NCBI GenBank assembly: GCA_012517875.1
Contig: JAAYUB010000047.1
Span: forward strand, 1-32,427
Direction: 5' to 3'
DNA: 32,427 nucleotides
Source of the DNA: Acidobacteriota bacterium
GTDB taxonomy: Bacteria > Acidobacteriota > JAAYUB01
Shown in pieces: positions 1 through 20,629 of this stretch (its first letter is position 1; every line of letters begins with the position of its first letter). Below the pieces are notes generated by a model. It worked only from the letters and a program-made list of their open reading frames with translations, was not told the DNA's origin and ran no database searches. The position numbers and the translations under genes were made by a program.

Positions 1-560
1 GGCCGCATCCAGATTGGTAGACAGGAGCAATATAGTCTGTGACTCCGGAAGCAATCACCACGTCCAGACAGAACGCGCCCCTCTCCAGGGGAAGGGTGTG
101 TTTTGTCTTGACGGGAGCGCTCTTCTCATAGATGAGGGTTGATGGGTGAGGATTGGAAACGAACCCCGAGCCCCGAGCCGCGAGCCAAGGTGCCAGAACC
201 CAGGTCCGAGTACGATTACGAATTACGAGCACGCCATCTGAATTCCGATGTCCGATTTACGAAGTCCGAATCATTCACCACGAAGGCACGAAGGACACAA
301 AGCATTTTGAGGGTTAGTGCTCGTAATCGAAATCGTGATCGGCGCGTCATCGACGGTGACGGGGTCGGATCAATCAGCCATCGCGCCACGATCCCGGCCC
401 TGGCGGGCCGGGCGCGTGCCGAACGCTCAACGATCAACCGTTTCCAACCTGCGAACTTGAGAACCTGTGAACTTGGGAACCTGGGAACCTGGGAACGTTC
501 CAACCTTCAAATTTTCAAACGGCTCGGTCACGATCACGATGACGATTACGAGCACGAAAT
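1..560. repeat. gene-free spacer with composite repeat block A
   Basis: I support no gene here. Bases 1-140 are ordinary-looking sequence. An open minus-strand frame runs off the left edge, but it has no start codon or ribosome binding site. From about 139 the spacer is built of short degenerate modules: runs of cgtaat/cgattacg-type 6-mers, a stretch resembling 'caccacgaaggcacgaag', a GC-rich core at 334-438, and gaacctgg-type 8-bp units at about 455-505. The same modules recur in the spacers near 8.2, 11.2-11.6 and 12.4-12.7 kb, in either orientation. Open frames across this block follow from the repeats, since both strands are open, and are not genes. Confidence 0.8.
334..438 (+). repeat. 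core repeat element, copy 1
   Basis: This segment of about 105 bp is found again at 11299-11406 and 12551-12658 in the opposite orientation with only scattered substitutions. It contains a hairpin with a CCGGCCC/GGGCCGG stem and a TGGC loop, and a second small hairpin with a CGTCA/TGACG stem. In copy 2 the loop of the large hairpin differs while at least six stem pairs are kept, so the fold rather than the exact sequence may be selected. It carries no coding signal and is not near an obvious transposase. Confidence 0.8.
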
Positions 561-1931
561 CTAAAGCCCGATGAAAAGCTCCAGCAGGGCCAGGTCCAGG
601 ACGTCCAGGAGACCATCAGCGTTCATGTCGCCGTTCCAGGAGGCCGGGATCTCCGTCTCGACCAGACTGTCGGCCAGCAGCCGGGCGAGAAGCTCGGCGT
701 CGATGGCGTCGACCGCCCCGTCCAGGTTCAGATCCCCGAGCAGCGGCGGGGCGGCATAGGCGATCCCGGTGAGGTAGCCGCCGGCGCCGAGGGTGTTTTG
801 GGGCTGCGTGCGGAGATTGGTCAGCACTCCCGTCGAGGGATTCACAGCGAAGGTGGTCACGTTCCGGTGGCCGGTGTTGGCGACGAACAGGTGGGTGCCC
901 GCCCGGCTGAGAGCCATCGCCGTGGACCCCATGCCGCCCGCCTGAAAGGGCGAGCCGGCCACGGCGGTCAGGAGCGTGCCGGCGCCGGCGCCGGTGATCC
1001 GGAACACCCCCACCCTGCTGTAGGTCCGGTCGACGACCATGTAATAGCCGGCTGGATGGCGGATGCCGAAGATCCCATCATCGAGTCCGGAGACGAAGGG
1101 GTTGCCGGAAACCGCCGTGGGGACGCCGGCCGCAAGGGTGTACGCCTCGCTCTGGCCGACGGTCTGGTTGTGATACGAATACATGAACAGCCGGCCCCGG
1201 CCGTCCGTCGCGTAAGCCAGCGGCCAATGGCCGTCGCTGGTGAAGGGGGAGCCGGGCAGAGGGTTGAGCGCCCCCGTGGTCGCGTTCACACCGAAGCCGG
1301 CGAAAAGCGTGGTGGCCCGGTTGCCGCCCGTGTAGACGGACGTCCCATCGCGGCTGAACGCCAGTGCGTACGGGAACACCCCGTTTCCCACGAAACAGGG
1401 GCTGTCGGCGGACAGCGCGGCGGTTGATGCGGTGATGACGAAGCTGGCCAGTTGGCCCGGCTCCACCGCTTGATCGAGTTGGTCCCGGGCGACCACCAAG
1501 GGCGAACCGGACGGATGCACGGCCACCGCGGCCCAGGCCCAGCGGTTCACCGGATCGGCCGGCCCGGGTGGCAGAGTCAGGGGGCTGAACGGCATAGGAG
1601 TGAGCGAGCCGTTGTCCAGGTTGACCGAGTAGGCACTCAGGGTGTTGGATCCCCCGTTGATGACGTACAGCCGCGCGTGGGCGGGATCGAAACACATCCG
1701 CTGGCACATCAGGTTCTGGGAACCGTTTCCTCCGGTGGTCATGGGAAAACCGGAGAGCAGCGTCAGCGTTCCGTCCGCCTCGTTCACGCCGTAGCCGTAT
1801 AGCTGGTTGGGGCCTCCGTTCACGTCATTGAGCACATAGAGGAAGCCGGCCTGGACGAATGAGGCGCCGGATGCGCTGACTAGCAGACCGCAGAACACCC
1901 ACAGCCACACGGTGTGTTTTGACTGAGTCAT
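561..1931 (-). CDS. secreted beta-propeller protein with dockerin-like C-terminus
   Basis: A 456-residue exported protein. The ATG at 1931 is chosen because it is preceded by GGGGAG at a spacing of 3-4 nt and begins a clear signal peptide (residues 1-28, hydrophobic core WLWVFCGLLVSA, cleavage near VQA). The body has at least five repeats of the type 'LYV-N-G-N-L-Y-V---TG-L-P---SPF', typical of YncE/lactonase-like seven-bladed propellers. The last 60 residues hold two calcium-loop motifs, GDLNLDGAVD and GDMNADGLLD, each followed by a short helix as in type I dockerins or EF-hand repeats. No scaffoldin or cohesin is visible, so the tail may simply be a calcium-binding or anchoring module. Family members bind ligands or act on lactones, but the role here is unknown. 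It is transcribed alone. Confidence 0.88.
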   Translation of the reverse strand: MTQSKHTVWLWVFCGLLVSASGASFVQAGFLYVLNDVNGGPNQLYGYGVNEADGTLTLLSGFPMTTGGNGSQNLMCQRMCFDPAHARLYVINGGSNTLSAYSVNLDNGSLTPMPFSPLTLPPGPADPVNRWAWAAVAVHPSGSPLVVARDQLDQAVEPGQLASFVITASTAALSADSPCFVGNGVFPYALAFSRDGTSVYTGGNRATTLFAGFGVNATTGALNPLPGSPFTSDGHWPLAYATDGRGRLFMYSYHNQTVGQSEAYTLAAGVPTAVSGNPFVSGLDDGIFGIRHPAGYYMVVDRTYSRVGVFRITGAGAGTLLTAVAGSPFQAGGMGSTAMALSRAGTHLFVANTGHRNVTTFAVNPSTGVLTNLRTQPQNTLGAGGYLTGIAYAAPPLLGDLNLDGAVDAIDAELLARLLADSLVETEIPASWNGDMNADGLLDVLDLALLELFIGL

Positions 1932-1968
1932 GATCTCCCCGTTGTAGCAGCCCGGATGTATGTCTACT

Positions 1969-1997
1969 ATCTTGCCGATCTGCGGGGATTTTGTCAA
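1969..1997 (-). promoter_or_regulatory. candidate sigma-70 promoter for the beta-propeller gene
   Basis: On the minus strand a perfect TTGACA (1997-1992) is followed after 17 bp by CAAGAT (1974-1969). The -35 is consensus and the -10 is weak, with three of six matches. The expected transcript would start about 30 nt before the ATG at 1931. Confidence 0.35.
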
Positions 1998-2149
1998 CAG
2001 GGTGACGCCACGCGGCCGGACTGTCCGGAGCTCGCCGGTCGAGCGTCGCCCCCCGAGCTCCGAAGTCTGCGGGACGGCTGATTCAGCGCGCAGGACCCGG
2101 AGGGCACGGAGGGATGCATCGGGTATTGACAATCGGCGAGTCGGAGAAT

Positions 2150-2490
2150 CGGGAGACGGGAGACGGGAGACGGAGCAACCATGAACGATCAGCCATCAAC
2201 CATTTCGAACTTGTGAACCTGCACACATCGAAACATCGCCCGATTTTGACACGATGATTCTCGAAGGCGGGCGCCCGGCCCGCAGGGCCGGACTGGATCT
2301 CCGGTTGGTGGGAGCCATCACCATCGTGCCTGGCGCCACGACCCCGGCCCGCCGGGCGCGTGACGAAAGGGGTGTCGGATCCGATCCCGTTGCTGACGCT
2401 AACGCGCATGATCATGATTACGAGCACGCAATCCGAATTCCGATGACCGCGAGCCTCGAGCCACGATCATGATCACGATCACGATCACGA
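2150..2490. repeat. diverged composite repeat block B
   Basis: This spacer lies between the beta-propeller gene and the phosphofructokinase gene. It contains three exact tandem copies of gggagac (2151-2171), a GC-rich stretch near 2330-2365 resembling part of the core element found at 334-438, and gatcac/gatcat 6-mer runs at 2404-2425 and 2464-2490. The rest of 1932-2578 shows only the two candidate promoters and no gene. Confidence 0.65.
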
Positions 2491-2521
2491 ACGGGCCCTG
2501 AGTCCCGGCGGGAGCGGCGTG

Positions 2522-2530
2522 TGGTAGAAT
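2522..2530 (+). promoter_or_regulatory. extended -10 promoter for the pfk operon
   Basis: TGGTAGAAT matches the extended -10 pattern TGnTAtAAT with one mismatch in the hexamer. No good -35 lies 16-18 bp upstream. It would give a leader of about 40 nt before the ATG at 2579. The subtilase gene at 20923 has the same arrangement. Confidence 0.45.
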
Positions 2531-2578
2531 GGTCGCAACGCGTTCGATGCTCACCAAGACTCGGGGCTGGAGGTGGCC

Positions 2579-3688
2579 ATGGCCGGAGCCGGGATCCGAA
2601 AGATCGCCATCAACACGGGCGGCGGCGACGCGCCCGGACTCAACGCGGTGATCCGCGCGGCGGTCATCGCCGCGCTCAACCGCGGCTGGGAGGTGTGGGG
2701 CATCCGCGACGGCTACCACGGCATCCTCAGTCCGGAAAAGTACCCGAACGGCGGCGTGATCCGGCTGACGGCCGACTCGGTGCGCGGGATCACCCACTTG
2801 GGCGGCACGATCCTGGGCACCACCAACTGGGGCAACCCCACCAAGTACCCGATGCCGGGCCCCGATGGCCAGCTCCGGGAGGTTGATCGCACCGGCGAGA
2901 TTGTCGACTACTTCGGCCGGGAGGGGATCGACGCCCTGGTGGCCATCGGCGGCGACGGTTCGCTGACCATCGCGATGGAGCTGGTCCGCAGGGGGCTCAA
3001 GGTCATCGGGGTGCCCAAGACCATCGACAACGACCTGGACAAGACGGTCATCACGTTCGGCTTCGACACCGCGGTGTCGTTCGCCACCCAGTGCATCGAC
3101 CGGCTCCATTCCACCGCCGAGGCACACCACCGCGTCATGGTGGTGGAGGTGATGGGCCGCTATGCCGGTTGGATCGCCCTGAACACGGGCATCTCCGGCA
3201 CCGCCAACGCCATCCTCATCCCGGAGATCCCGTACGATCTGGCCCAGGTGGCCGAGAAGATCCGCCAGCGCGAGGCCCGCGGCCGGCATTTCTCCATCGT
3301 CGTGGTGGCCGAGGGCGCCAAGCCGAAGGACGGCACGGTGACCGTGGTCTCCAAGGAGGTGGGCAGGCTGGAGCGTCTGGGCGGCGTGGGCGCCATCGTC
3401 ACCGATCAACTCCAGCAGCTCACCGGCAAGGAGTGCCGCCTGGTGGTGCTGGGCCACCTGCTGCGCGGCGGCAGCCCCACCACCTTCGACCGGCTGATCG
3501 CCCTGCGATTCGGCGCCGCGGCGATCCGGGGCCTGTCCGAAGGGCGGTGCGGCTGCATGGTGGCGCTGGACCCGCCCACGGTTCGCTACGTGCCCCTGGA
3601 GGCGGCCACCAGCCGGATGAAGTCGGTCCCCCTGGATTGCGATTCCATCCTCACCGCCCGCGAACTGGGCATCTGCTTCGGCGACTGA
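2579..3688 (+). CDS. pfkA: 6-phosphofructokinase, mixed ATP/PPi-type active site
   Basis: A 369-residue PfkA-family enzyme that phosphorylates fructose-6-phosphate to fructose-1,6-bisphosphate in the cytoplasm (glycolysis). The ATG at 2579 is preferred over the GTG at 2573, because GGAGG (2569-2573) is correctly spaced for the ATG and overlaps the GTG. Visible motifs are NTGGGDAPGLN (residues 12-22, nucleotide loop), GGDGS (124-128), PKTIDND (146-152, catalytic Asp) and MGRYAGW. The residue pair that separates donors is Gly in GGDG, as in ATP enzymes, combined with Lys in PKTIDND, as in PPi enzymes. In characterised families this Gly/Lys pair occurs in ATP-using enzymes of the PPi-related lineage, so ATP is the more likely donor, but the choice is not certain. 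It is the first gene of an operon with the permease at 3720. Confidence 0.95.
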   Translation: MAGAGIRKIAINTGGGDAPGLNAVIRAAVIAALNRGWEVWGIRDGYHGILSPEKYPNGGVIRLTADSVRGITHLGGTILGTTNWGNPTKYPMPGPDGQLREVDRTGEIVDYFGREGIDALVAIGGDGSLTIAMELVRRGLKVIGVPKTIDNDLDKTVITFGFDTAVSFATQCIDRLHSTAEAHHRVMVVEVMGRYAGWIALNTGISGTANAILIPEIPYDLAQVAEKIRQREARGRHFSIVVVAEGAKPKDGTVTVVSKEVGRLERLGGVGAIVTDQLQQLTGKECRLVVLGHLLRGGSPTTFDRLIALRFGAAAIRGLSEGRCGCMVALDPPTVRYVPLEAATSRMKSVPLDCDSILTARELGICFGD

Positions 3689-3719
3689 GCGCGGGCCGGA
3701 GTCCGGCACAGGAGGGCCG

Positions 3720-5489
3720 ATGCTGCTGCTGTTCCTCATCGTCACGGGCGCCGTGGTCCTCTTCTTCACCGAAGCGCTGCCCGTTGAGCTGACCGCCCTG
3801 CTGGTGCTGGCGGCGTTGCTGGTGACGGGGGCGGTGACGCCTGAGGAGGGGCTGACCGGCTTTTCCAACCCGGCGACGGTCACCGTCACGGGGTTGCTGG
3901 TGATGAGCGCGGCCATCGAGAAGACGGGCGCCCTTCAGATCGTCGCCCGGCGCATCCTGAAGCTGTCCCGCCACGCGCCGGGCCGGGTGATGGCCATGCT
4001 GACCGGGGCGACGGGTGCGCTGTCCATGTTCCTGAACAACACCCCCGTGGTGGCCATGCAGCTCCCCATCGCCATCTCGCTGGCGGAGAAATCGCGGCTG
4101 GCGCTCTCCCGGCTGCTCATGCCCATCTCGTTCGCCGCCATTCTCGGCGGCACCTGCACCATGATCGGCACGTCCACCAACGTGCTGGTCGGCGCCCTCG
4201 CCGCCGAGCGGGGCTGGCGCATCGGCCTGTTTGACATCACCGGCATCGGCCTGGCGTACTTCGCCGTGGGCATGGCGTACATGGCCGTGGTGGGCGTCCG
4301 GCTGATCCCCGACCGGGACCGGCCGCAGGAGCTGTCCGAAAAATACTGCCTGCGGGAGTACATCGCCGAGGTGGAGGTGCTGCCCGGCTCGGCGTTGGTG
4401 GGCCAGCCGGCCGGTCCGCGCCTGACGCTCGACGGCGGGGAGCCGGTGGGCGTCGGCATCCTGGCGGTGGTGCGCGGCGAGCACAAATACCCGCCCGGAG
4501 AGGCACCCGCGCTCACCGCCGGCGACCTGCTCATCGTCAACGGCGCGGTGGACCGGCTGCTCCGGCTGCGCGAGCTGCCCGGCCTGCGCATCCGCCACGA
4601 CTTCCACCTGGATGACCGGGCCCTGCAGTCGGGGCAGATCGTGCTCGCCGAGGGGATCCTGGCGCCGGCGTCGCGGCTGGTCGGCGCCACCCTGAAGGAG
4701 GCGGATTTCCGCCGCACCTACGGCGTCGTGGCGCTGGCGGTGCGGCGGCACGGCAAAATCCTGCGGGAGAAGGTTGGGCGGGTTCGGCTGAGTTTCGGCG
4801 ACACGCTGCTCCTCCAGGGCGACCGCCAGCGGATGGATCAGCTGGGCAGCGTCGCCGACTTCCTCATGCTGGAACGGATCAAGCTGCCCCAGCCGCGCCG
4901 GGACAAGATCCCCCTGGCCGTGGGCATCTTCCTGACATGCCTGGTGCTGATGGGCGCCGGCGTGCTGCCCCTGACCACCGCCGTGATCGTGGGCGCCCTG
5001 CTCATGCTGCTGACGCGGTGCCTCCGGCTCCAGGAGCTCTACAACGTGCTCCCCTTCAAGATCATCCTGCTGCTGGGCTGCCTCATCCCGCTGGAGCGGG
5101 CCATGGAGCGCAGCGGGGCGGCCGACGGCATCGCCCACGCCCTGCTCCGCGTGGCAGGCGACGGGCGGCCGCTCCTGGTTCTGGCGCTCCTGGCCGTGGT
5201 CACGCTGGTGCTGACCGAGATCATGTCCAACACGGCCTCGGCCGTCCTGATGGCCCCCGTCGCCTTCGCCCTGGCCGCCCAACTGGGCGTCTCGCCCAAG
5301 CCGCTCGTGCTGGCAGTGATGTTCTCGGCATCGTTCTCGTTCCTGACGCCGGTGGGCTACCAGACCAACACCATGATCTACGACGTGGGCGGTTACCGCT
5401 TCACCGACTTTGCCCGGGTGGGTGCGCCGCTCACCGCGCTGCTGCTGAGCGTGTCGGTGGCGCTGATACCGTTGTTCTGGCCATTCTGA
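3720..5489 (+). CDS. SLC13/DASS-type anion permease with central TrkA-C domains
   Basis: A 589-residue inner-membrane protein. The start is set by GGAGG at 3711-3715. Residues 1-200 and 400-589 are strongly hydrophobic, with several transmembrane helices in each half. The signature FLNNTPVV near residue 105 and TMIGTSTNVLVG near 145 are the sodium/anion-binding SNT-like hairpins of the divalent anion:sodium symporter (CitM/ArsB superfamily) fold. A second matching hairpin, EIMSNTASAV, and the late VGYQTNTMIY lie in the C-terminal half. The soluble middle part (about 205-385) looks like two RCK_C/TrkA-C regulatory domains, the usual layout of bacterial SLC13 permeases annotated for sulfate, dicarboxylate or citrate. 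The substrate cannot be read from the sequence. It lies 31 bp downstream of pfkA and 11 bp upstream of the DUF2270 gene, so all three are probably cotranscribed. Confidence 0.9.
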   Translation: MLLLFLIVTGAVVLFFTEALPVELTALLVLAALLVTGAVTPEEGLTGFSNPATVTVTGLLVMSAAIEKTGALQIVARRILKLSRHAPGRVMAMLTGATGALSMFLNNTPVVAMQLPIAISLAEKSRLALSRLLMPISFAAILGGTCTMIGTSTNVLVGALAAERGWRIGLFDITGIGLAYFAVGMAYMAVVGVRLIPDRDRPQELSEKYCLREYIAEVEVLPGSALVGQPAGPRLTLDGGEPVGVGILAVVRGEHKYPPGEAPALTAGDLLIVNGAVDRLLRLRELPGLRIRHDFHLDDRALQSGQIVLAEGILAPASRLVGATLKEADFRRTYGVVALAVRRHGKILREKVGRVRLSFGDTLLLQGDRQRMDQLGSVADFLMLERIKLPQPRRDKIPLAVGIFLTCLVLMGAGVLPLTTAVIVGALLMLLTRCLRLQELYNVLPFKIILLLGCLIPLERAMERSGAADGIAHALLRVAGDGRPLLVLALLAVVTLVLTEIMSNTASAVLMAPVAFALAAQLGVSPKPLVLAVMFSASFSFLTPVGYQTNTMIYDVGGYRFTDFARVGAPLTALLLSVSVALIPLFWPF

Positions 5490-5500
5490 CAGGAGGCATC

Positions 5501-6235
5501 ATGACGAACGATGCGCGCGCCGACAGCAACTTCCCCAATTTCGAGAACCAACCGCTCACCCGGGGGGAGTACATCCAATCGGTGATTCACCTGTACCGCG
5601 GCGAGATGCAGCGGGCGGTCACCTGGCGCTCGCGGCTGGACACCACCACCAACTGGGCCATCGTGGTCACCGTCACTGCGCTGAGCTATGCGTTCGGAGC
5701 TGTGGAGCACCCGCACATCATCATCATCCTGGCCAACGTCATCATCCTGACGCTGCTCTGGGTGGAGGCGCGGCGCTACCGCTACTACGACGTCTGGCGG
5801 ACGCGCCTGCGCAAGATCGAGGAGAACTTCTTCGCCCCGCTCCTGCGGCGCGACCTCCAGAGCCCCGACGCGCGCTGGGGCAGCATCGTCGCCGAAGACT
5901 TCCTGCACCCCCGCTTCAAGATCGCCTTCATCCACGCCCTGAAGGCGCGGCTCATGCGCAACTACGCCACCCTGTTCCTGATCACGCTGGCGGCCTGGCT
6001 GGTAAAGATCAGCGTCTGGTCGCCGCGGGGCCACCTGGAGGAGGGGCTGGCGTTTTCCTGGGCGCGGTTCTACGGGGCCATGGGCTTCTCGACCCTGTCG
6101 CCGGCCGTTGTCCTGGCCGTCCAGGCCGCCTTCTACGGGTTTCTGGCGGTGGTGATGCTCTTCGTCCGGGTGCCGTACGGCTACAGCGGGGAGATCCACG
6201 AGATCACCCCGGACCGCGAGTTCTGGGACCGCTGA
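5501..6235 (+). CDS. DUF2270 family integral membrane protein
   Basis: A 244-residue protein. ATG 5501 follows AGGAGG with a 4-nt gap, and the gene begins 11 bp after the permease stop. Residues 20-60 are polar with many Arg, then come two close hydrophobic helices (about 50-88), a cytoplasmic-looking central part with RRYRYYDVWRTRLRKIEENFFAP, and two further helices (about 155-175 and 200-225). This matches the DUF2270 family of predicted membrane proteins, whose biochemical function is unknown. The third place in an operon with phosphofructokinase and an anion permease suggests an accessory role in transport, but that is only inference. Its stop codon lies inside a perfect inverted repeat shared with the convergent gene. 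Confidence 0.85.
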   Translation: MTNDARADSNFPNFENQPLTRGEYIQSVIHLYRGEMQRAVTWRSRLDTTTNWAIVVTVTALSYAFGAVEHPHIIIILANVIILTLLWVEARRYRYYDVWRTRLRKIEENFFAPLLRRDLQSPDARWGSIVAEDFLHPRFKIAFIHALKARLMRNYATLFLITLAAWLVKISVWSPRGHLEEGLAFSWARFYGAMGFSTLSPAVVLAVQAAFYGFLAVVMLFVRVPYGYSGEIHEITPDREFWDR

Positions 6236-6259
6236 CGGCGGCCGCCGGCCGCCGTCAGC
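6231..6259. terminator. perfect 13-bp inverted repeat over two convergent stop codons
   Basis: GCTGACGGCGGCC and its exact reverse complement are separated by a 3-nt loop (GCC). The TGA of the DUF2270 gene (6233-6235) and the TGA of the opposite gene (6255-6257) both lie inside the stem, at symmetric positions. The hairpin would be very stable in either transcript. There is no T-run on either side, so it is not a classic intrinsic terminator. It could protect or define both 3' ends. Confidence 0.65.
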
Positions 6260-8063
6260 CGATGTGGGCGGTGGGCTCCACGATTTCCAGCCAGGAGAAC
6301 CAGAGCGGGTGCCGCCGCTTGTACCAGCGGAGCACCTCCAGCAGCTTCGCCTGCTTCGCCTCGGGGATGGCCTCGGGCAAGATCCGGTCGAAGTAGATCC
6401 GGATGTGTTCGTCGCCGCAGAACTCGAGGGCCTCGGTGCAGAGCGTCTGCAGTTCGTTGCGGATCCGGCCCGAATCCGAGATCTTGACGGGGCGGGTCTC
6501 GTAGTCCTCGCCGGCCAAAAAGCGGTTGAGCAGCGGGTTGAACACCAGCCGGCTCTGGTTCGGCGTCTCCATCATGCGCAGGGTGAAGGTGATCAGCTTG
6601 TCCCCGCGCGGGGCGGCCAGCCGGACGGTGGACCGGAACACGTTGGTTTCGATCTGCTTCACGCCCGGTGCCCCGGAGTACGGGTCCGCCTGCATGTAGC
6701 CGCAGACGGCCAGCACGTCCCATTCCTTCTCAGGGAAGAAGTCGTCCACGTGGATCAGCGGCTTGTGCACCGGGATGCCGGCGTCGATCCCCTCGTGGAT
6801 GAGGCGGCGGAACTCCTGCACCGTGGCGGCGTCGGCGGAGCGGCCGATGATCGCCTCCAGACGGGCCTTGAAGTCGTCGGCGTCGGGGTTGAGGCTCATC
6901 ACGTCCTGCTCGCGCTGGTACGGCAGGTCGAAGCGCGAGGTGAAGGGGACCAGCGAGGCCTCGAGGTTCAGCATGGGGGCCAGGCTGGCCGCCTGGATGG
7001 CCTCGGCCGACGCAGCGTAACCGTCCACGAGGAACAGGTGGAGGTCGCCGCCGGCGTCGCGCCAGGTGCCCACGCGATAGGTGGGGGCGTAGGTGCCCGA
7101 CTCGGTGAACGCCTCCAGCCCGGAGGGAAGGACGAACCCGTCGTCGATGATGTGCACGCCCTGGGCCGCCCACTGCCGCCACAGCTCGCCGATGCGGGGC
7201 TCGCGGCTCTTACCGCGAAGGGTCCAGACGTGAATGTGATCCCGCTTGATGCCGGGGTAGCATTGCTCGATGGCCCGGACCACCAGCGCCCGGTCGGTGC
7301 GGAAGGTGATGAGCAGGGACTCGAGGGCCGCCCGCGCCACGATCTCGCGCGGCAGGAACAGGTTGCCCACGTAGCCCTCGTACGGCCGCGAGACACGCAG
7401 CGGCTGGTTGAACAGGTGCAGTACGGTGAGCGCCCCGTTGGGACTCCCCTTGGCGAAGCGGGAGGTGTTCTCGAGGGTGTCGATGGCCGCCCCCCAGACC
7501 GTGATCCCGCGCGCTTTGATCTCGCCGTAGAAATCCTCCCAGCGGTAGGACGGGTCGTTGAGCATGCGCACCACCCGCTGGTCCAGCCAGCGCGCCACTT
7601 CGGGGCGCGCGTACACCCGGCCGAAGCCGAGCTGCGGGTTGGAGCCCATCTCGGGGGTCTCGCCGGCCTTGGGCATGAGCCCCTCGCCCATGCAGACCAT
7701 GATGGCGTGGTTTTCGGGGAGCTGGCGGGTCAGGTACCAGAGGCTCTCGCTCAGCGCGTAGGCCGAGATCGCGTCGGCATCCTTCTTGACCTGGTTGAGG
7801 CCGGCCTTGTCGAGCTTGGCACCCTCGCCGAAGCGCCCGAAAAGCAGGGTGCCCAAGGCCGTCACCGCAGCGCCCATGGCGAAGAGCCGCTCCATGCGGC
7901 CGTCGAGGAAGGAAATCTCCCGGGTGAATTCCTTGGCCGGCTCGCCGCTGAGCCACCGGACCTCCACGTCGTCCAGCCAGAGATGGAACCGGCCCAGGAT
8001 GGGCCGGGTGTCGAATGCCCATTGGGCAATGAGATCTTGCTGGTCCTGCATCATTTCGTTCAT
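6255..8063 (-). CDS. conserved-looking protein of unknown function, 602 residues
   Basis: I do not recognise this protein. The ATG at 8063 has CAGGAG about 8 nt upstream. The sequence is soluble, rich in charged and aromatic residues, and has no signal peptide. The only mildly hydrophobic stretch is near residues 60-77 (FAMGAAVTALGTLLFGRFG). Codon use is strongly GC-ending throughout and the protein has well-mixed composition, so it is a genuine gene. Notable stretches are HAIMVCMGEGLMP, RDHIHVWTLRGKSREPRIGELW, GVHIIDDGFVLPSGLEAF and IHVDDFFPEKEWDVLAVCGYM. The C-terminal part (about 470-600) may form a separate alpha/beta domain. No nucleotide-binding or metal motif stands out. It is transcribed alone, convergent with the pfkA operon. 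Confidence 0.85.
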   Translation of the reverse strand: MNEMMQDQQDLIAQWAFDTRPILGRFHLWLDDVEVRWLSGEPAKEFTREISFLDGRMERLFAMGAAVTALGTLLFGRFGEGAKLDKAGLNQVKKDADAISAYALSESLWYLTRQLPENHAIMVCMGEGLMPKAGETPEMGSNPQLGFGRVYARPEVARWLDQRVVRMLNDPSYRWEDFYGEIKARGITVWGAAIDTLENTSRFAKGSPNGALTVLHLFNQPLRVSRPYEGYVGNLFLPREIVARAALESLLITFRTDRALVVRAIEQCYPGIKRDHIHVWTLRGKSREPRIGELWRQWAAQGVHIIDDGFVLPSGLEAFTESGTYAPTYRVGTWRDAGGDLHLFLVDGYAASAEAIQAASLAPMLNLEASLVPFTSRFDLPYQREQDVMSLNPDADDFKARLEAIIGRSADAATVQEFRRLIHEGIDAGIPVHKPLIHVDDFFPEKEWDVLAVCGYMQADPYSGAPGVKQIETNVFRSTVRLAAPRGDKLITFTLRMMETPNQSRLVFNPLLNRFLAGEDYETRPVKISDSGRIRNELQTLCTEALEFCGDEHIRIYFDRILPEAIPEAKQAKLLEVLRWYKRRHPLWFSWLEIVEPTAHIG

Positions 8064-8127
8064 GCGTCGGACTCCTGAAAAATGATGGTAGCCATGATGT
8101 TCATTATGTTGACGTTGGACAATACCA

Positions 8128-8156
8128 GTCTACGGCTTTCAGGCCGTTATTGCAAG
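8128..8156 (-). promoter_or_regulatory. candidate promoter for the 602-residue unknown gene
   Basis: On the minus strand TTGCAA (8156-8151), a 17-bp spacer and TAGACT (8133-8128) each match four of six consensus bases. The spacing is ideal and the start codon lies about 65 nt downstream. Confidence 0.3.
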
Positions 8157-8159
8157 ACC

Positions 8160-8425
8160 GATTCGCTTTGAGAGCCGGGAGCGGACATCGGACTTCGGAC
8201 ATCGGATATCGTGCTCGTCAGTCGTGATCGTGATCGTAATCGTGTTCGTAATCGGACTTGGGGCCTGGGTTCTGGGACCTTGGCTCGGGGCTCGGGGCTC
8301 CCGGTTCGGGTCTCGGGATCCGGGTTTCGTTGCCAACCCTCATTCATCAATCCTCAACTGTCCCCAACCTGCGAACTTGAGAACCTGTGAACCTGCGAAC
8401 GTTCTCAATTCACCCATTCACCCAT
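8160..8425. repeat. composite repeat block C
   Basis: It contains cgtgatcgtaatcg-type 6-mers, tctgggacctgggttc-type units, ggctcgggg runs, gaacctgtgaacctgcg units, and two copies of attcaccc at the right end. Read on the minus strand, 8345 down to about 8180 closely parallels the left half of block A (about 150-300) module by module, but the GC-rich core at 334-438 is absent. The spacer 8064-8561 holds no gene besides this block and two promoter candidates. Confidence 0.7.
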
Positions 8426-8462
8426 TGCTCCCTCTACCATTTGGTTGCGGCCGACATTCCCA

Positions 8463-8491
8463 TTGACAGGGCTGCAGCCATCCAGTAGCAT
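8463..8491 (+). promoter_or_regulatory. candidate sigma-70 promoter for pcnB
   Basis: TTGACA (8463-8468), a 17-bp spacer and TAGCAT (8486-8491). The -35 is consensus and the -10 matches four of six. It lies just outside the repeat block and about 70 nt before the chosen start at 8562. Confidence 0.45.
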
Positions 8492-8561
8492 GACTTGGAC
8501 GTGCCGTCCCGTCGGCACGGAGCATCCGGGCCGAGGCGGCCCGCTCACGAAGACGAAACGC

Positions 8562-9980
8562 ATGAACGGCTCCGATCCCCTGATCATCCCCCGCGCGCAG
8601 CATCCGATTTCCCGAAGGAATATCAGTTCGAACGTGCTCAAGGTGCTGGCGCACCTGCGCCGTAACGGCCACACGGCCTACATCGTGGGCGGCGGGGTCC
8701 GCGATCTGTTGCTGGGGCGCCGGCCCAAGGACATGGACGTGGTCACCGACGCCACGCCAGCCCGGATCAAGAAGATCTTCCGCAACTGCCGCCTGGTGGG
8801 CCGCCGCTTCCGGCTGGCCCACGTCCACTTCCGCGATGAGATCGTGGAGGTGGCCACGTTCCGCTCGCCCGTCGAGGACACCGATGACGCGCCGGCTGAG
8901 GCGCACGCCGGACCGGAGGAGCTGCCGCCGCGGCTGGCCGGCATCGTCAAGAGCGAGGACGGCCAGATCCTGCGCGACAACGTGTTCGGCACGCCGGAGC
9001 AGGACGCCCGGCGGCGCGACTTCACCCTCAACGCCCTCTTCTACAACATCGATGATTTCGCCATCATCGACTATGTCGGCGGCTACCAGGACATCCAGGA
9101 CCGCCGCATTCGCTCCATCGGCGACCCGAACCAGCGCTTCATCGAGGACCCCGTCCGGATGATCCGGGCGGTGCGCTTCGCCGCCGCGCTGGGCTTCACC
9201 CTCGACGCCGAGACGCACGCCGCGCTGCTGGCCCACCGCGGCCTCATCGTCAAGGCGTCGTCGGAACGGATGTTCGAGGAGGTCCGCAAGCTGCTGCTGC
9301 TCGGCTCGGCCCGCCCCATCTTCGAGCTGCTCCACGCGACGGGACTGTTCACCCTTGTCTTCCCGGTGGCGCAGGCTGCCCTACCCGAGGGGGAGGGGGG
9401 GTGGTATTACGAGCACCTGCGCCGCGTGCTGGACTGGGTGGACGCCCGCGTGGCCGCCGGCGAGGCGGTGGACCTGGCCCTGCTGTTCGCCCTCATGTTC
9501 GGCCCGCTCATCGAACGGCGGGCCGGCGATCTCCAGGGCGACGAGCCCATGAGCGCCGTGACGGCCTACAAGCAGACCGTCGGCGAGTTCGTGGCCGAGA
9601 TGGCCCCCAGCGTCCGGATCCCCAACATCGTCGGGCTGGGGATCCGGGACATCCTGAGCAACCAGTGGCGCTTCCACCGGAACCAGGGCCGCCGGGCTGC
9701 CCGGCTGCTGCGGATGCCGGTGTTCGCCGACGCCTGGACCTACTTCCGGCTCATCCACGGGAGCACGGGCCGCGGCCCGGAGCTGTGCGCATGGTGGGAG
9801 TCGTTCCTGCAGGGCCAGGCGGTGCCGGAGAGCGCCGCCGCGGCCGCCGGGTTCGCCCCGCCGGCCAAACGCCGCCGGCGGCGCCGCCGGAGAGGCCGCC
9901 GCGGGCCGGGCGAGGGGCCGGCCGCGCCGCCGAACGGGGAGCCCGCCGAAGGCTGGACGGGATCGGGCCTGAGTTTTTAG
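8562..9980 (+). CDS. pcnB: poly(A) polymerase / tRNA nucleotidyltransferase family protein (PcnB-type)
   Basis: A 472-residue class II nucleotidyltransferase. The N-terminus IPRAQHPISRRNIS, followed by VGGGVRDLLLGRRPKDMDVVTD with metal-binding Asp57 and Asp59, and then FRNCRLVGRRFRLAHV, is the PcnB pattern. The next motifs are RRDFTLNALFY and RFIEDPVRMIRAVRFAA, also as in E. coli poly(A) polymerase I, which adds 3' A tails to RNA and promotes its decay. The start at 8562 gives the usual PcnB N-terminus; its ribosome binding site is weak. Longer starts at 8445 or 8490 would include the promoter. The C-terminus (about 435-472) is a disordered, very basic tail with eight consecutive Arg, which could bind RNA. 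A CCA-adding role cannot be excluded. The HD-domain gene starts 22 bp downstream. Confidence 0.92.
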   Translation: MNGSDPLIIPRAQHPISRRNISSNVLKVLAHLRRNGHTAYIVGGGVRDLLLGRRPKDMDVVTDATPARIKKIFRNCRLVGRRFRLAHVHFRDEIVEVATFRSPVEDTDDAPAEAHAGPEELPPRLAGIVKSEDGQILRDNVFGTPEQDARRRDFTLNALFYNIDDFAIIDYVGGYQDIQDRRIRSIGDPNQRFIEDPVRMIRAVRFAAALGFTLDAETHAALLAHRGLIVKASSERMFEEVRKLLLLGSARPIFELLHATGLFTLVFPVAQAALPEGEGGWYYEHLRRVLDWVDARVAAGEAVDLALLFALMFGPLIERRAGDLQGDEPMSAVTAYKQTVGEFVAEMAPSVRIPNIVGLGIRDILSNQWRFHRNQGRRAARLLRMPVFADAWTYFRLIHGSTGRGPELCAWWESFLQGQAVPESAAAAAGFAPPAKRRRRRRRRGRRGPGEGPAAPPNGEPAEGWTGSGLSF

Positions 9981-10002
9981 TCCATCACGGGGAGTGCCGA
10001 GC

Positions 10003-11163
10003 ATGAGGACGATCATCAACGCGCACCAGTTCCTGAGCCTGTCCGCGTCGATCAACTACCAGCTGTCGGCCTCGCCCATCAACTGGCGGGCCGTTCTGGC
10101 CCTGGTGGTGGGCAACCGCCTCGACGAGGCGGACAACGAGATCATCCTGGAGGCACTCCACTACCTGGGCGAGGCGTACGGGCAGACGAAGCGCCGCCTG
10201 GGGCCGTACGCCATCATCCACCCCATCCGCGCCATGGCCCTGCTCAGCCGCGCGGTGGAGAAGTTCACCCTCCTCGACCTGCTCACCATCCTCTTCCACG
10301 ACAAGCAGGAGGACATCACGGCGGACCGCTACCCGGCGGACGCCTGGCGGTCGCTGGAGGTGCATTACGCCGCCCTCATCCGCCGGCTCAAGCCCGAGGA
10401 TGAGTGGTTCCTCAACGAGCGGCTGGAGATCCTGGCGATCCAGCCCGGCGAGAAATACTACAACTACCTGGGCCGGATGCTGGAGCGCGCCCACCAGACG
10501 CCGGAGCTGGTCCGCATCAAGCTGGCCGACCGGTTGGACAACACGCTGGACCTGCGCATGGACCTGTACAGCGACAAGGCCGACATCGAGTGCTACGAAA
10601 TGATCTTCGCGCTGCTGTTCACCGAGACGCGCGCCCGCTTCTGCGTGCGACCACCCCACCCGGTGCCGGGGAAGATCAACGGCGCCCGCCGGCTGTACCA
10701 GATGTTCAAGAACGCGGTGTTTCTCTCGCTGCTCCGCGACGCCGGACTGGACCGCATCGACACGGCCTGCGAGCGCCTGTTCGCCACCATCGCCCGGACC
10801 AGCCTGTCGGAGGCGCAGCGCATCCTGCAGCACATCTTCATGTACCACCTGCAGGAGATGCAGGACCAGCGGGCGATCCTGATGGACGTGATGACGTACT
10901 GCCAGCAGGGCGCCGTCACGCGGGTCACGCCCACGAGCGCCACTCACCGGCTGGACGGCCTGTTCAAGTACCGCTTCGATCACGAGGACAAGGAGACCCG
11001 CAACCGCAGCCTGGACGAGCTCTACAAGGACAAGCCCCTGATGGCCGAATCGGCGCTGGCTTTTATGGCGGTGTTTTCCAGCTTTCTGATGGATCCCGAC
11101 TTCAAGATCCGGGGCATCGACGCAGCAGGCATCCATCCGGATTCGGCCGGGCCTGAGGCCTGA
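10003..11163 (+). CDS. HD-domain protein resembling the RelA/SpoT hydrolase domain
   Basis: A 386-residue cytoplasmic protein. GGGGAG at 9989-9994 fits the ATG at 10003; the upstream in-frame GTG overlaps that site. An HD signature is visible: His73 in IIHPIRAM, His99-Asp100 in FHDKQEDI with Glu103-Asp104, and Asp176 in KLADRLDN. Order and spacing match the (p)ppGpp hydrolase domain of RelA/SpoT (HP, HDxxED, KLADRxxN). No synthetase, TGS or ACT domain follows. The rest (about 200-386) is mostly helical and includes RARFCVRPPHPVPGKINGARRLYQMF. A manganese-dependent phosphohydrolase acting on a nucleotide is likely, but the substrate is unknown. The tight operon with a poly(A) polymerase homologue hints at RNA or nucleotide metabolism. 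Confidence 0.8.
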   Translation: MRTIINAHQFLSLSASINYQLSASPINWRAVLALVVGNRLDEADNEIILEALHYLGEAYGQTKRRLGPYAIIHPIRAMALLSRAVEKFTLLDLLTILFHDKQEDITADRYPADAWRSLEVHYAALIRRLKPEDEWFLNERLEILAIQPGEKYYNYLGRMLERAHQTPELVRIKLADRLDNTLDLRMDLYSDKADIECYEMIFALLFTETRARFCVRPPHPVPGKINGARRLYQMFKNAVFLSLLRDAGLDRIDTACERLFATIARTSLSEAQRILQHIFMYHLQEMQDQRAILMDVMTYCQQGAVTRVTPTSATHRLDGLFKYRFDHEDKETRNRSLDELYKDKPLMAESALAFMAVFSSFLMDPDFKIRGIDAAGIHPDSAGPEA

Positions 11164-11179
11164 TCGTCGCTGTTCACTC

Positions 11180-11640
11180 AAAGTTGAGGGTTCGTGCTCG
11201 TAATCGTAATTCGTAATCGTAATTCATAATCGTTATCGAACCGTTTGAATGTTTGAATGTTTGAACGTTCACAGGTTCTCAACAGTTGATAGTTGATGGT
11301 TGATCGTTGAGCGTCCGGCACGCGCCCGGCACTTTCGGGCCGGGATCGTGGCGCAATGGCTGATTGATCCGACCTCGCCACCGTCGATGACGCGCCGATC
11401 ACGATTTCATTATGAGCACGATTAAGAGCACGAACCCTCATAATTCTTTGTGTCCTTCGTGCCTTCGTGGTGAACGATTCGGACTTCGGAAATCGGACAT
11501 CGGATTTCGTGCTCGTAATTCGTAATCGTACTCGTAATCGTGATCGTAATCGGACCTGGGATCTGGGTTCTGGGCCCTAAGGTCCGAATTCCAGTTCCCA
11601 GCACCCAGGTCCCAGGTCCCGGATCCCATCTTCCATCAAC
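11180..11640. repeat. composite repeat block D with core copy 2
   Basis: From left to right: cgtaat 6-mers, three tandem copies of gtttgaat/c (11243-11266), gttgat units, the core element in reverse orientation (11299-11406), 'ccttcgtgccttcgtggtgaac', tcggac units, more cgtaat/cgtgat 6-mers and ctgggatctgggttctggg 7-mers. This is nearly block A read on the opposite strand. The spacer 11164-11880 otherwise holds the 8-bp tandem array and a promoter, and no gene. Confidence 0.8.
11299..11406 (-). repeat. core repeat element, copy 2
   Basis: It matches copy 1 (334-438) as its reverse complement and copy 3 (12551-12658) in the same direction. The large hairpin keeps CCCGGC/GCCGGG while its loop reads ACTTTCGG in place of CCTGGCGG. 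The second, small hairpin is weakened here. Confidence 0.8.
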
Positions 11641-11752
11641 CGCACGAATGGACTCGTATCTAGACAGCCAATAAAATTTAAGCAATAACCAATAATCCGA
11701 AATGACCAATGACCATTCTTCAATGAAAAATGATCAATGAATCCCTGTTCCC

Positions 11753-11807
11753 ATTCACCTATTCACCTATTCACCTATTCACCTATTCACCTATTCACCT
11801 ATTCACC
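11753..11807 (+). repeat. 8-bp tandem repeat, 6.9 copies of attcacct
   Basis: Six exact copies of attcacct (11753-11800) and a seventh lacking its last base. Related attcaccc units occur twice at the end of block C (about 8406-8423). Array length is likely to vary by slippage. An open frame through the array reads into the HAD gene but has no ribosome binding site. Confidence 0.95.
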
Positions 11808-11820
11808 ATCCTCCTATCCC

Positions 11821-11849
11821 TGGCCATGCCTCTCACTTGGGCATACAAT
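11821..11849 (+). promoter_or_regulatory. candidate promoter for the HAD gene
   Basis: TGGCCA (11821-11826), a 17-bp spacer and TACAAT (11844-11849). Four of six and five of six bases match consensus. It lies just after the tandem array and about 32 nt upstream of the GTG start at 11881. Confidence 0.4.
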
Positions 11850-11880
11850 AGATCAGTTACTTCATCGCCGGAGCGAGGCC

Positions 11881-12384
11881 GTGAACCGCAGCGAACGGTG
11901 CGTGCTCTTCGACTGGGGGGACACCTTGATGGTGGATTTCCCCGGTTGCCGTGGGCCGATGATCGGCTGGCCGAAGCTGGCGGCGCTGCCGGGGGCGGCC
12001 GAGACGCTGGCCGCCCTGCACCCCGCGTGGACGCTGGCGCTGGCCACCAATGCCGCCGATTCGGACGAGGCGCAGATCCGAGCCGCCCTGCGCCGGGTGG
12101 ATCTGGATCGATGGCTCGACCGCGTCTACTGCTACCGGCGGATCGGCCACCCCAAGCCGAGCGCGGCGTTTTTCGAATCCGTCCTGCGCGATCTCGGCCT
12201 GGTGGCGCCGCGCGTCGTCATGGTGGGCGACGATTACGACAAGGACGTGCAAGGGGCGCGGCAGGCGGGCCTGCGCGCCGTGTGGCTCAACCGGCGCACC
12301 GGCGACCGGCCGGAGGGAGAAGGTCTCCGAACCATCCTGGATCTGGGGGAATTGCCGGGCGTTCTGGAGAATTGGGAAAGGTGA
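11881..12384 (+). CDS. HAD-superfamily hydrolase
   Basis: A 167-residue cytoplasmic phosphatase-like protein. The GTG at 11881 is chosen because GGAG lies 7 nt upstream and the HAD fold begins directly (VLFDWGDTL, Asp11 nucleophile). An upstream ATG would add residues encoded by the attcacct array. Motif II is the T/N in LALATNAADSD, motif III the Lys in GHPKPS, and motif IV GDDYDKD with its acidic pair, followed by GARQAGLRAVWLNR. Motif I reads D-W-G-D-T. Compared with canonical DxDGT the third and fourth positions are exchanged, so the usual general acid at +2 is Gly. The cap is minimal. It resembles phosphoglycolate phosphatase/haloacid dehalogenase-like proteins of unknown substrate. It stands alone between repeat blocks D and E. 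Confidence 0.88.
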   Translation: MNRSERCVLFDWGDTLMVDFPGCRGPMIGWPKLAALPGAAETLAALHPAWTLALATNAADSDEAQIRAALRRVDLDRWLDRVYCYRRIGHPKPSAAFFESVLRDLGLVAPRVVMVGDDYDKDVQGARQAGLRAVWLNRRTGDRPEGEGLRTILDLGELPGVLENWER

Positions 12385-12394
12385 ATCGGTGAAA

Positions 12395-12735
12395 CGGTAT
12401 CCGTGCTCGTAATTCGTAATCGTGCTCGCAATTCGTAATCGGATCTGGGACCTGGGTTCTGGGTCCTGGGTCCTAGGGTTCGAATTCCAGGTCCCAGCAC
12501 CCAGGACCCGGTTCCCAAGTTCACAGGTTCGCGGATAGTTGATCGTTGATGGTTGATCGTTGAGCGTTCGGCACGCACCCGGCCCTGGCGGGCCGGGATC
12601 GTGGCGCGATGGCTGATTGATCCGATCCCGTCACCGTCGATGACGCGCCGATCACGATTTCAATTACGATCACGATTACGAATTACGATTACGAGCACGA
12701 ACCTTCAACTTTCAACCATCAACTATCAACTATCC
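12395..12735. repeat. composite repeat block E with core copy 3
   Basis: It carries cgtaat/cgtgct 6-mers, about five units of the ctgggtc type (12441-12477), gttgatcgttgat units, the core element at 12551-12658, then cgattacg 6-mers and caactat 7-mers. The order matches block D. It fills the whole gap between the convergent HAD and metallophosphoesterase genes, and no gene is seen in it. Confidence 0.8.
12551..12658 (-). repeat. core repeat element, copy 3
   Basis: The best-preserved copy. CCCGGCCC and GGGCCGGG form an 8-bp stem with a TGGC loop, and CGTCA/TGACG a smaller one. Orientation is the same as copy 2 and opposite to copy 1. Confidence 0.8.
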
Positions 12736-12746
12736 ACCATCATCGA

Positions 12747-13910
12747 TCAACTCTGCAGATTGAATGCGACCTCGATGAGCACGATTTCCGGGCGGTTGCC
12801 CACGCGGACGGGCGGGCCCCATGTGCCGAAGCCGCACGACACGTAAATCTGCGTGCCGCCAATCCGCCCGTACCCGTAGCTGATGGGATAGATCGAACGG
12901 GTGATCAGGCTGAGCGGCCAGAGCTGGCCGTGGTGGGTGTGCCCCGACACCTGCAAGTCCACGCCGTGCCGCGTCGCGTCGTCCAGCCGGAACGGCTGGT
13001 GGTCCATGAGGATCACGGGCCGGGCGCGGTCGGCGGCGCGGAGCACCTCGGCCAGCGGCCTGCGCTCGGCGCCGGTGAAGCGGCCCTTCATGCGGTCCTC
13101 GCGGCCGGCCAGCCAGATCCCGCCCGGCAGCGCCACCGCCTCGTCGCGCAGCACCCGGATGCCGTGCGCCTCCAGGTACCGCACCGCCGGCTCGGCGCCG
13201 CCGATGTACTCGTGGTTGCCGGTGCACGCCCAGACGCCCAGCGGCGCGCGCAGCTGAAGCAGCTGCCGGCCCAGGTCCTGGCGGATGACGGGCTCCAGGT
13301 CCTCATCCACGATGTCGCCGGGCAGGAGGATGAGATCGGGTCTCAGTCCGGCCACCGCGGTCACCAGGTCGCCCACGAGTGAGTTACCCACGAGGGTGCC
13401 CAGGTGGATGTCCGACGCCATGGCGATCCGCAGACTCGTCCGGCCCTCGACCACCTTGGGGATCGTCACGGCCAGGCGGCGCACCTGCGGACTGCGCGCA
13501 TTCCAGAAGCCGAAGCCCACGGTGAGGGCGGCGGCCGCCAACACCGCGGCGAAGGCAACCAGGCGGGCGCAGGGCAGATGGTCCGTCACCGCCGCCGGCA
13601 AGATGTGGAACCAGCGGTGCAGCAAGCGCAACAGGTCCACCAGCACCGCGCCGAGGATGAGATACAGCATCAGCGCCAGCCAGAAGGAGCCCACCCAGAC
13701 CAGCACCGTGGCCGGACCGATCCAGTCGGTGCGTTCCAGCAGGCGGCCGGCGATGAACGCCGCCGCGCCCAGTCCGAACACCACCGTGACGACGATCCGC
13801 CACGGCGAGCCGGCGGGGAGGGCCTGCCAGCCGCGCCGGAAGATGTAGGCGTTCAGCAGGAAGTACAGAATGAAAAAAACAGAAAAAAAGATGATGAAGC
13901 TGGCTTTCAT
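12747..13910 (-). CDS. membrane-anchored metallophosphoesterase (YaeI/YkuE-like)
   Basis: A 387-residue protein. The ATG at 13910 starts the first membrane helix (IIFFSVFFILYFLL); no strong Shine-Dalgarno is seen, but longer starts cross the divergent promoters. Four or five transmembrane helices occupy residues 1-145. A calcineurin-like phosphoesterase domain follows with all five metal motifs: SDIHLG (DxH), LPGDIVDED (GDxxD), TGNHEY (GNHE), the His in LMDHQPF, and SGHTHHGQLWP (GHTHxG). This layout is typical of YkuE/YaeI-type enzymes. Some relatives hydrolyse UDP-2,3-diacylglucosamine or other phosphodiesters, but the substrate here is not evident. It diverges from the DUF2914 gene with paired promoters. 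Confidence 0.92.
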   Translation of the reverse strand: MKASFIIFFSVFFILYFLLNAYIFRRGWQALPAGSPWRIVVTVVFGLGAAAFIAGRLLERTDWIGPATVLVWVGSFWLALMLYLILGAVLVDLLRLLHRWFHILPAAVTDHLPCARLVAFAAVLAAAALTVGFGFWNARSPQVRRLAVTIPKVVEGRTSLRIAMASDIHLGTLVGNSLVGDLVTAVAGLRPDLILLPGDIVDEDLEPVIRQDLGRQLLQLRAPLGVWACTGNHEYIGGAEPAVRYLEAHGIRVLRDEAVALPGGIWLAGREDRMKGRFTGAERRPLAEVLRAADRARPVILMDHQPFRLDDATRHGVDLQVSGHTHHGQLWPLSLITRSIYPISYGYGRIGGTQIYVSCGFGTWGPPVRVGNRPEIVLIEVAFNLQS

Positions 13911-13985
13911 GGCAGCGGCTTCTGGCGACCTCGCGAGGCGGCATCCGACGCGACGGCGACGCGCAGTCGGCCGGTTGAGACAGCC

Positions 13986-14014
13986 ATTGTAGGCAGACCT
14001 ACGGTGGCGTTCAA
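13986..14014 (-). promoter_or_regulatory. promoter for the membrane metallophosphoesterase
   Basis: Minus-strand TTGAAC (14014-14009), a 17-bp spacer and TACAAT (13991-13986). Four and five of six bases match consensus. It lies 24 bp from the opposing promoter at 14038-14066, so the two are divergent and do not overlap. Confidence 0.5.
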
Positions 14015-14037
14015 CGGCAAACTTGGGCCGGCCGCCC

Positions 14038-14066
14038 TTGACATCGCCGCCCTGTTGGTTTATGAG
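14038..14066 (+). promoter_or_regulatory. promoter for the DUF2914 gene
   Basis: TTGACA (14038-14043), a 17-bp spacer and TATGAG (14061-14066). The -35 is consensus, the -10 has four of six matches, and AGGAGG follows about 35 nt further on. Confidence 0.5.
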
Positions 14067-14111
14067 GGAGGCCACACCCCTGCGGGGGCAGGATCGGCGG
14101 AGGAGGCAACC

Positions 14112-14519
14112 ATGAAACACGTTGCGCGATGCGCGTTTCTGACAGCGGCGCTGGCGCTGCTGGCCGGCGCGGCGGCCGCCCAGGCGGTCGCCGGGCCCAT
14201 GGTGAAACTGGACCGGTTCGTCGTCTGCGCCAACGTGGAGAACCGCGAGCCGGTGGGCGAGGCAGACACGTTCCCCGCCACTACCGAGAAGGTGTTCGCC
14301 TTCGTGGAATTGAAAGAGGTCGCGGTGGACACTGAGATCGCCGTCGTCTGGTTTCACGACGAGCGCGAAGCGGGCCGGACCACCCTGGCAGTCCGGCAAG
14401 GAGCGCGCTGGCGCACCCACGCCTACAAGACGCTTCACAACCGCACCGGCGCCTGGCGGGTCGAGGTGCTCGATGCCGGCGGCGCCAAGCTGGGCGATGC
14501 TTCATTCACGGTGGAATAG
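14112..14519 (+). CDS. small secreted DUF2914 protein
   Basis: A 135-residue protein. ATG 14112 is placed by AGGAGG (14101-14106). A signal peptide is evident (residues 1-26, hydrophobic core FLTAALALLAGAAAA). The mature part matches the DUF2914 pattern: a beta-rich domain with FAFVELKEVAVDTEIAVVW, then WRTHAYKTL, WRVEVLDAGGAKLG and a final FTV strand. Family members are often periplasmic or membrane-tethered, and no activity is established. The gene has its own promoter and is convergent with the VWA operon, sharing the terminator region between them. Confidence 0.85.
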   Translation: MKHVARCAFLTAALALLAGAAAAQAVAGPMVKLDRFVVCANVENREPVGEADTFPATTEKVFAFVELKEVAVDTEIAVVWFHDEREAGRTTLAVRQGARWRTHAYKTLHNRTGAWRVEVLDAGGAKLGDASFTVE

Positions 14520-14541
14520 CGGCGCATGTTGGCGCCGCGAT

Positions 14542-14574
14542 AAAAAAAACGGGGCGGACCCGGTGTCCGCCCCG
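14542..14574 (-). terminator. intrinsic terminator of the VIT/VWA operon
   Basis: Read on the minus strand, a stem of 9-10 bp (GGGGCGGAC with GTCCGCCCC, loop ACCGG) is followed directly by eight T residues. It lies 64 nt beyond the stop of the VWA gene at 14638. It has no T-run in the plus direction. Confidence 0.9.
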
Positions 14575-14637
14575 AAGCCATGGGTAGGGAGGTAGGTCCC
14601 CGGCGGACGACCGCGCCGCCCGCCGGGACGGCGATGC

Positions 14638-15792: not shown

Positions 15793-15828
15793 GTTCGTCT
15801 CCTTAGCATTCATGATGTCGGTTGCGGT

Positions 15829-18093: not shown

Positions 18094-18389
18094 CGGGGTC
18101 CTCCTGGTGGCGGTGGCGCCGTTTGGTAACTATTTGACCCGTCCGGCGGGGAAACGGATCATCGGCGCGGTCACTTTAGAGACGGCGGCGGTGCGGCCGG
18201 CTTGCAACTTTTTTGCAGACAGGGCCACGGCCGCGCGGTTCATGGCGGTTAAGATGCTGCGGGCGGCTCATTTGGCGGCGTTGACAGGTACGGGGCTTCA
18301 GGGACCCGGGACACTCAGCCGGCCGCGGCGGAGGGGGCGTTTCGAGCGTCTCGTTCTCGGACGGCGCCGGCCGCGACCAGGCCTTGGCC

Positions 18390-18695: not shown

Positions 18696-18707
18696 TCATG
18701 AACCCCC

Positions 18708-20615: not shown

Positions 20616-20629
20616 TCGGTTGCATCTCA

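Follow-up and report, generated by a model that had tools for sequence, protein, structure and literature searches.

Hairpin repeats in Acidobacteriota spacers as likely remnants of a REPIN-like miniature element of a Y1 transposase

A contig of 32,427 nucleotides from an Acidobacteriota bacterium (JAAYUB010000047.1 of assembly GCA_012517875.1; this whole stretch is called the window here) holds three copies of a hairpin repeat of about 108 bp, and the question raised by the locus is what these copies are and how they came to be dispersed over its spacers. A non-autonomous mobile unit, a structured RNA and a nucleoid-protein site had been offered as guesses in a first-pass annotation made from the letters alone. 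With high confidence, the three copies are interpreted here as what is left, in collapsed form, of a REPIN-like miniature mobile element whose cognate enzyme is a Y1 (HUH) transposase. Among the observations behind this reading are that the same ends occur on a transposase gene and on gene-less copies, and that short and long forms of the element are found at orthologous sites. The elements are read as a REPIN-like family and apparently as a variant not described before, although priority, judged from open-access papers, is not certain.

Copy 1 lies at 332..439 on the plus strand (left-end to right-end orientation), with the outer hairpin at 393-411 and the loop TGGC. Copies 2 and 3 lie in the opposite orientation on the minus strand, at 11298..11405 (outer hairpin at about 11326-11343, loop GAAA) and at 12551..12658 (outer hairpin at 12579-12597, loop GCCA), and all three are of the collapsed form. 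The genome-wide search gave identities to copy 3 of 92-94% with E values of at most 1e-38 (1.2e-42 for copy 1), by which chance is excluded as the source of the similarity. Pairwise similarity runs slightly further, with 93% over 123 nt between 317-439 and 12551-12673, and 92% over 126 nt between 11284-11409 and 12537-12662. The annotated picture of three near-identical copies, in both orientations and in spacers only, was borne out with coordinates shifted by no more than a few bases, and so was the lack of a transposase near them, as no Y1 transposase gene is encoded anywhere in the window. Two hairpins had been assigned to each copy; the main one, CCCGGCCC-NNNN-GGGCCGGG, is indeed present in all three and is the only one they have in common, whereas the second differs from copy to copy in the folds.

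For comparison, the window's own genome (G000) was set beside two sister species of the same genus (G001 and G002). Copy 2 had been thought to change its loop while keeping its stem, suggesting selection on structure, but one of its stem pairs is broken. Its loop difference is not a compensation, because the sister ortholog has a perfect stem with the same loop; it is an old hairpin variant. Nor is the repeat confined to three copies, since related pieces were found on at least four other contigs of G000, together with a longer form.

This longer form came to light because the genome-wide search returned two sorts of incomplete match, covering either the first part of the core or a later one, and the two sorts lie about 290 bp apart on one contig. 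It is an inverted doublet with about 270 bp between its outer hairpins, and in the gene-less versions about 200 bp separate the inner hairpins. At each end, an outer hairpin CCGGCCC-loop-GGGCCGG is followed after about 10 nt by the foot TTAG, and then comes an inner hairpin CCAGGGGC-loop-GCCCCTGG; the ends of the element read GGGGCGCA. In the short form, one outer hairpin and its flanks are kept while everything between the two outer hairpins is gone. Long forms are present in G000 (on contig G000:C79), in G001 and in G002. When 60 genomes were searched, strong matches were obtained in these three only; three distant genomes gave weak matches to part of the sequence, and the single genome from the same family but another genus gave none. 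Counts within the genus rest on the matches of the genome search and on the stretches examined, and copy numbers are lower bounds because, in these fragmented assemblies, many contigs break off within an element. A second, diverged group of ends, in which outer hairpins such as CCGTCCCTCCGGGCCGG are combined with a GGCTATT foot, was seen at G000:C94, G000:C62, G001:C26, G002:C79 and G002:C126.

Which enzyme would act on such ends was indicated by a Y1_Tnp family search, in which an intact gene for a transposase of 153 amino acids was found between two inverted ends of exactly the long-form kind, on G000:C125 and in synteny on G001:C144. The gene-bearing element measures about 767 bp between its outer hairpins, has inverted arms of about 48 bp and contains no accessory gene. 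Among the stretches examined, G000 and G001 have one intact transposase copy each, at the syntenic site, and the gene-less doublets outnumber it. The protein carries the motifs HVH and Y---Q--HH (YIDSQEEHH in the query), of which the HxH and the Y are invariant in the alignment. It scores 76 bits against PF01797, 57 bits (57.2; cut-off 55) against the NCBIfam IS200 model and 18 bits (cut-off 80) against the RAYT model. The predicted structure (pLDDT 93.8) is nearest to the transposases of ISDra2 and IS608 (best PDB match E 1e-8), followed by the E. coli RAYT, and the protein is thus predicted to fold as an IS608/ISDra2-type Y1 transposase. A class 2 RAYT was considered as mobiliser and rejected, as the RAYT model falls far below its cut-off and the motif is Y---Q--HH, not Y---NP. 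The transposase genes of G000 and G001 (loci L075 and L076, 1310-2090) are 99.3% identical, against 87% for the genes to their left, which suggests recent spread or exchange of the transposase gene at the shared site; the right-hand neighbour gene differs between the two genomes.

From the intact gene, the fold and the pattern of copies, the transposase is probably active. By analogy with TnpA of IS608, it would bind the hairpins on single-stranded DNA and cut beside them, and the gene-less doublets would be moved by it in trans; that the element moves is inferred from these features. It was also proposed in the first-pass annotation that the repeat serves a nucleoid protein, and a binding site for such a protein or for a topoisomerase, spread for that role, would have a parallel in the enterobacterial REP elements, which bind IHF, DNA polymerase I and gyrase (PMC6006769). 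However, ends shared with a transposase gene account for the copies without any such role, and this explanation appears most improbable.

How the short form arises can be approached through sites that are comparable between the three species. The copy 3 site is short in G000 and long in G001 (G001:C144:11493-11869), while the G002 contig ends on long-form sequence; the copy 2 site is short in G000 and G001 and long, with a tandem interior, in G002. Elsewhere in the genome, the short copy of G000:C126 is represented by a long one on G001:C34 and by another, long up to the contig end, on G002:C83, and the short copy of G000:C100 by a copy on G001:C13 and G002:C158 that has a decayed transposase gene with its middle missing. 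The C126 short form has the loop GTCA, identical to that of the left outer hairpin in the G001 long form, as predicted by a deletion between the outer hairpins. Read from left to right, some of the collapsed copies have loops of the left type (GCCA, GAAA) and others of the right type (TGGC, TTTC, TGC), and separate, independent collapses are thereby indicated. The short form would have originated by deletion between the two outer hairpins, in several independent events; since these hairpins, as palindromes, are direct as well as inverted repeats of each other, the deletion would most likely proceed through replication slippage. The guess of a non-autonomous mobile unit is supported by these comparisons, but the 105-bp unit itself is probably not the moving form and rather its collapsed remnant. 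Presence of the same sequence at orthologous sites in all relatives had been named as a sign against mobility; the sites are shared, but the form found at a site differs between species.

A different origin of the collapsed copies was considered, in which they are excision scars, the transposase having removed the interior asymmetrically and left one hairpin behind. Asymmetric REPIN excisions have been reported in Pseudomonas fluorescens (PMC3116915), the genome has a transposase gene that is intact, and at several orthologous sites one species has the long form and another the short. Nevertheless, the excisions in P. fluorescens leave a few bases of one end, with about 6 bp kept in the scar and not a whole hairpin (PMC3116915); cleavage at the TTAG foot should yield a remnant with both outer hairpins, where a single one is seen; and the two loop types among the collapsed copies fit slippage more simply. 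Excision is therefore held to be a possible but doubtful source of the short form.

The flanks of the copies raise another matter. Immediately beyond the outer hairpin, most elements have no more than a few bases (around GGCA) in common, while in some 25-60 bases are shared. The window copies and several others have an extended left flank and a right flank in common that other elements lack, and the spacers are rich in other degenerate repeats, so the 105-bp sequence might be taken for a spacer repeat in its own right that received the hairpin element as a carrier, the short form being the carrier without an insertion. This is improbable, as the short form still has the outer hairpin and loop, which are part of the element's own ends, and as the short/long difference recurs at G000:C126, where the left flank is unrelated.

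The remnant reading is preferred, but several points weigh against it. The window copies share about 60 bp to the left and about 25 bp to the right of the hairpin, which other copies lack; they may in part have spread by duplication of spacer DNA, and the true termini are not fixed. MITEs are recognised by a target site duplication or an empty site, and a clean empty site, with the flanks joined and no element, was not found at the five contigs searched (G000:C79 and, in G001, C44, C34, C175 and C123), each of which could have revealed one; C34 yielded a short/long pair instead. At most of the sites that could be compared, all three species have an element, and recent movement is not demonstrated. 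The direction from long to short is deduced from the loops and from parsimony, with no outgroup at the same site.

An RNA-level role was the remaining guess, namely that the repeat is a structured RNA, a terminator or an mRNA-stabilising element kept for its function downstream of genes. Its hairpins are GC-rich, and copies 1 and 3 are located past the 3' ends of adjacent genes, a common position for REPs (PMC3733652): copy 1 past the end of a lactonase/dockerin gene (561-2132, minus strand), and copy 3 between a HAD hydrolase gene and a metallophosphatase gene that is transcribed towards it. Copy 2 is flanked by a gene with no Pfam match (9994-11163) and by the HAD hydrolase gene. Against such a role, the Rfam search of the window gave no match, the folding z-scores of the window copies are modest (+0.1 to -2.6), the stems are nearly invariant within the genus and show no covariation there, the stem of copy 2 is broken, and the form of the element varies between species at one and the same site. 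A retained RNA function is therefore very unlikely. An integron attC site was also entertained and dropped by eye, as the GTTGAGC/GCTCAAC boxes are wrongly oriented and have no partner.

Whether the same architecture exists outside the genus was asked with the transposase as query against 84,980 species genomes, from which 80 loci were kept, 73 of them with flanks long enough for analysis. When the left and right flanks of a locus were compared, the best-scoring inverted repeat reached at least 18 in 52 of the 73 loci, compared with 2.2% when flanks of different loci were paired. Of all flanks, 66% contain a double hairpin whose foot includes AGC, against 4.3% of dinucleotide shuffles, and 39 loci have it on both sides. 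TTAGCC and GTAGCC are the most frequent feet (across phyla TTAG 20 and GTAG 15, then others), and the motif Y---Q--HH is found in 71 of the relatives' 75 proteins. Thirty-five loci were tabulated, and as they were selected for having the structure, the table describes it and is no test of it: 13 kinds of outer-hairpin stem occur, in which pairing is kept though the stems differ between phyla; the outer-hairpin loops are mostly GAA, GGA, AAA or AAC; and the inner foot follows at a distance of 9-13 nt in 66 of 70 arms. That pairing is kept between phyla suggests that hairpins at the ends of a transposable unit are under selection. Where the two ends have identical loops, these are inverted relative to each other in 16 loci and in direct orientation in none, so the outer hairpin belongs to the element and not to the target; its interpretation as a target duplication was rejected. 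Hairpins of the C-GNA-G type, such as GCGAAGC, are very stable in DNA, and stable GNA-type loops would suit a single-stranded DNA substrate. About 21 of the 73 Y1 relatives (several of the loci L110 to L186) score below 18 and have no strong inverted ends.

Three distant genomes contain gene-less and gene-bearing forms side by side. In a Pirellulales genome the arms occur 28 times, with gene-less inverted pairs of 190-223 bp and a gene-bearing pair of 693 bp; in a Planctomycetota genome 18 times, with pairs of 221 bp and a pair of 687 bp around the gene; and in a Hydrogenedentes genome 27 times, with pairs of 240-279 bp and one of 791 bp that encloses the gene. The geometry of the window's genus matches, with about 270 bp gene-less and 767 bp with the gene. 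It is probable that TnpAY1 subclass 1.2 comprises the transposases of a widespread two-hairpin miniature family, with an autonomous element of about 690-790 bp and gene-less doublets of about 190-280 bp per genome and with mostly GNA-type loops (GAA, GGA) on the outer hairpins, in Acidobacteriota, Planctomycetota, Hydrogenedentes and probably many more phyla.

Compared with known systems, the element resembles the REPINs and RAYTs (TnpAREP) of Pseudomonas and E. coli in its inverted palindrome doublets in spacers, its non-autonomy, the ends shared with a Y1 gene and the singlet remnants (PMC3116915). Gene-less inverted doublets, which define a REPIN, are seen as long forms in the genus and in the three other genomes, whereas the window copies are collapsed. 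It differs in the Y---Q--HH transposase, where class 2 RAYTs have Y---NP, in having two hairpins per end, in the foot seen in this genus (TTAG, against GTAG or GTGG in REPINs, although GTAG is also frequent among the relatives from other phyla) and in the lower copy number seen. With the IS200/IS605 elements IS608 and ISDra2 it shares a Y1 HUH transposase of the same predicted fold, the catalytic motifs and hairpins near the ends, but it has long inverted terminal repeats with two hairpins each, gene-less doublets that outnumber the gene, and no accessory gene; one intact transposase gene per genome was seen, where IS200/IS605 have several autonomous copies. The motif Y---Q--HH, the short protein and the low gene copy number agree with TnpAY1 subclass 1.2 (Quentin et al. 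2018, PMC6006769). That subclass was described as generally without typical terminal structures and as residing mostly in Cyanobacteria and Bacteroidetes (PMC6006769), whereas most of the relatives found here possess inverted ends, usually with two hairpins, and many belong to other phyla, which suggests that the lack of terminal structures does not hold for most of them. TIRtrons and TIRYTs also have Y1 genes within long inverted repeats, some of them 'double palindromic', and dispersed copies (Di Nocera et al. 2013, PMC3733652), but their motif GGGGWSAS is not matched by the ends described here, and the present protein has a class 1 signature, while the 26 TIRYT examples are all in class 2 subclasses and none in 1.2 (PMC6006769).

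Further traces lie elsewhere in the window. A weak similarity at 2339..2419 (71-72% identity to part of the core; E 1.3e-3 and 4.1e-4) is possibly a decayed remnant. The spacer at 8203..8260 has no element, while half an element stands there in both sisters (G001:C144:16297-16452 and G002:C33:9966-10119). The same spacer is an edge of the segment that is inverted in G001, where window 394-8235 is turned relative to 8209-21666 and the edges carry these elements; G002 is collinear with the window over 2472-11169. In G002 a stretch of about 1.65 kb between two genes (G002:C33:6221-7872) is absent from the window (6243-6245). The window spacers 160-320, 440-500, 8180-8400, 11186-11310, 11436-11810, 12395-12520 and 12649-12752 are full of degenerate tandem 'words' of 6-8 bases, among them CGTAAT, GTTGATC, CCTGGGT, GAACCTGG and ATTCACCT; similar words occur at dozens of sites in the genus, and an array in this style adjoins a Y1 gene in a Verrucomicrobia genome (L130).

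A transposase subclass without an assigned DNA partner would gain one by this assignment, and the structure of that partner can be tested in vitro. In distant phyla the geometry is constant: each end has two hairpins and a tagged foot, the doublets are of near-fixed length, and a gene-bearing version exists. This suggests that, apart from the RAYTs, there is a REPIN-like system that is old and has been successful. Copies also border a segment that is inverted in a sister genome, and the difference between long and short forms at orthologous sites is a natural record of element decay, comparable to the solo long terminal repeats (LTRs) of eukaryotes.

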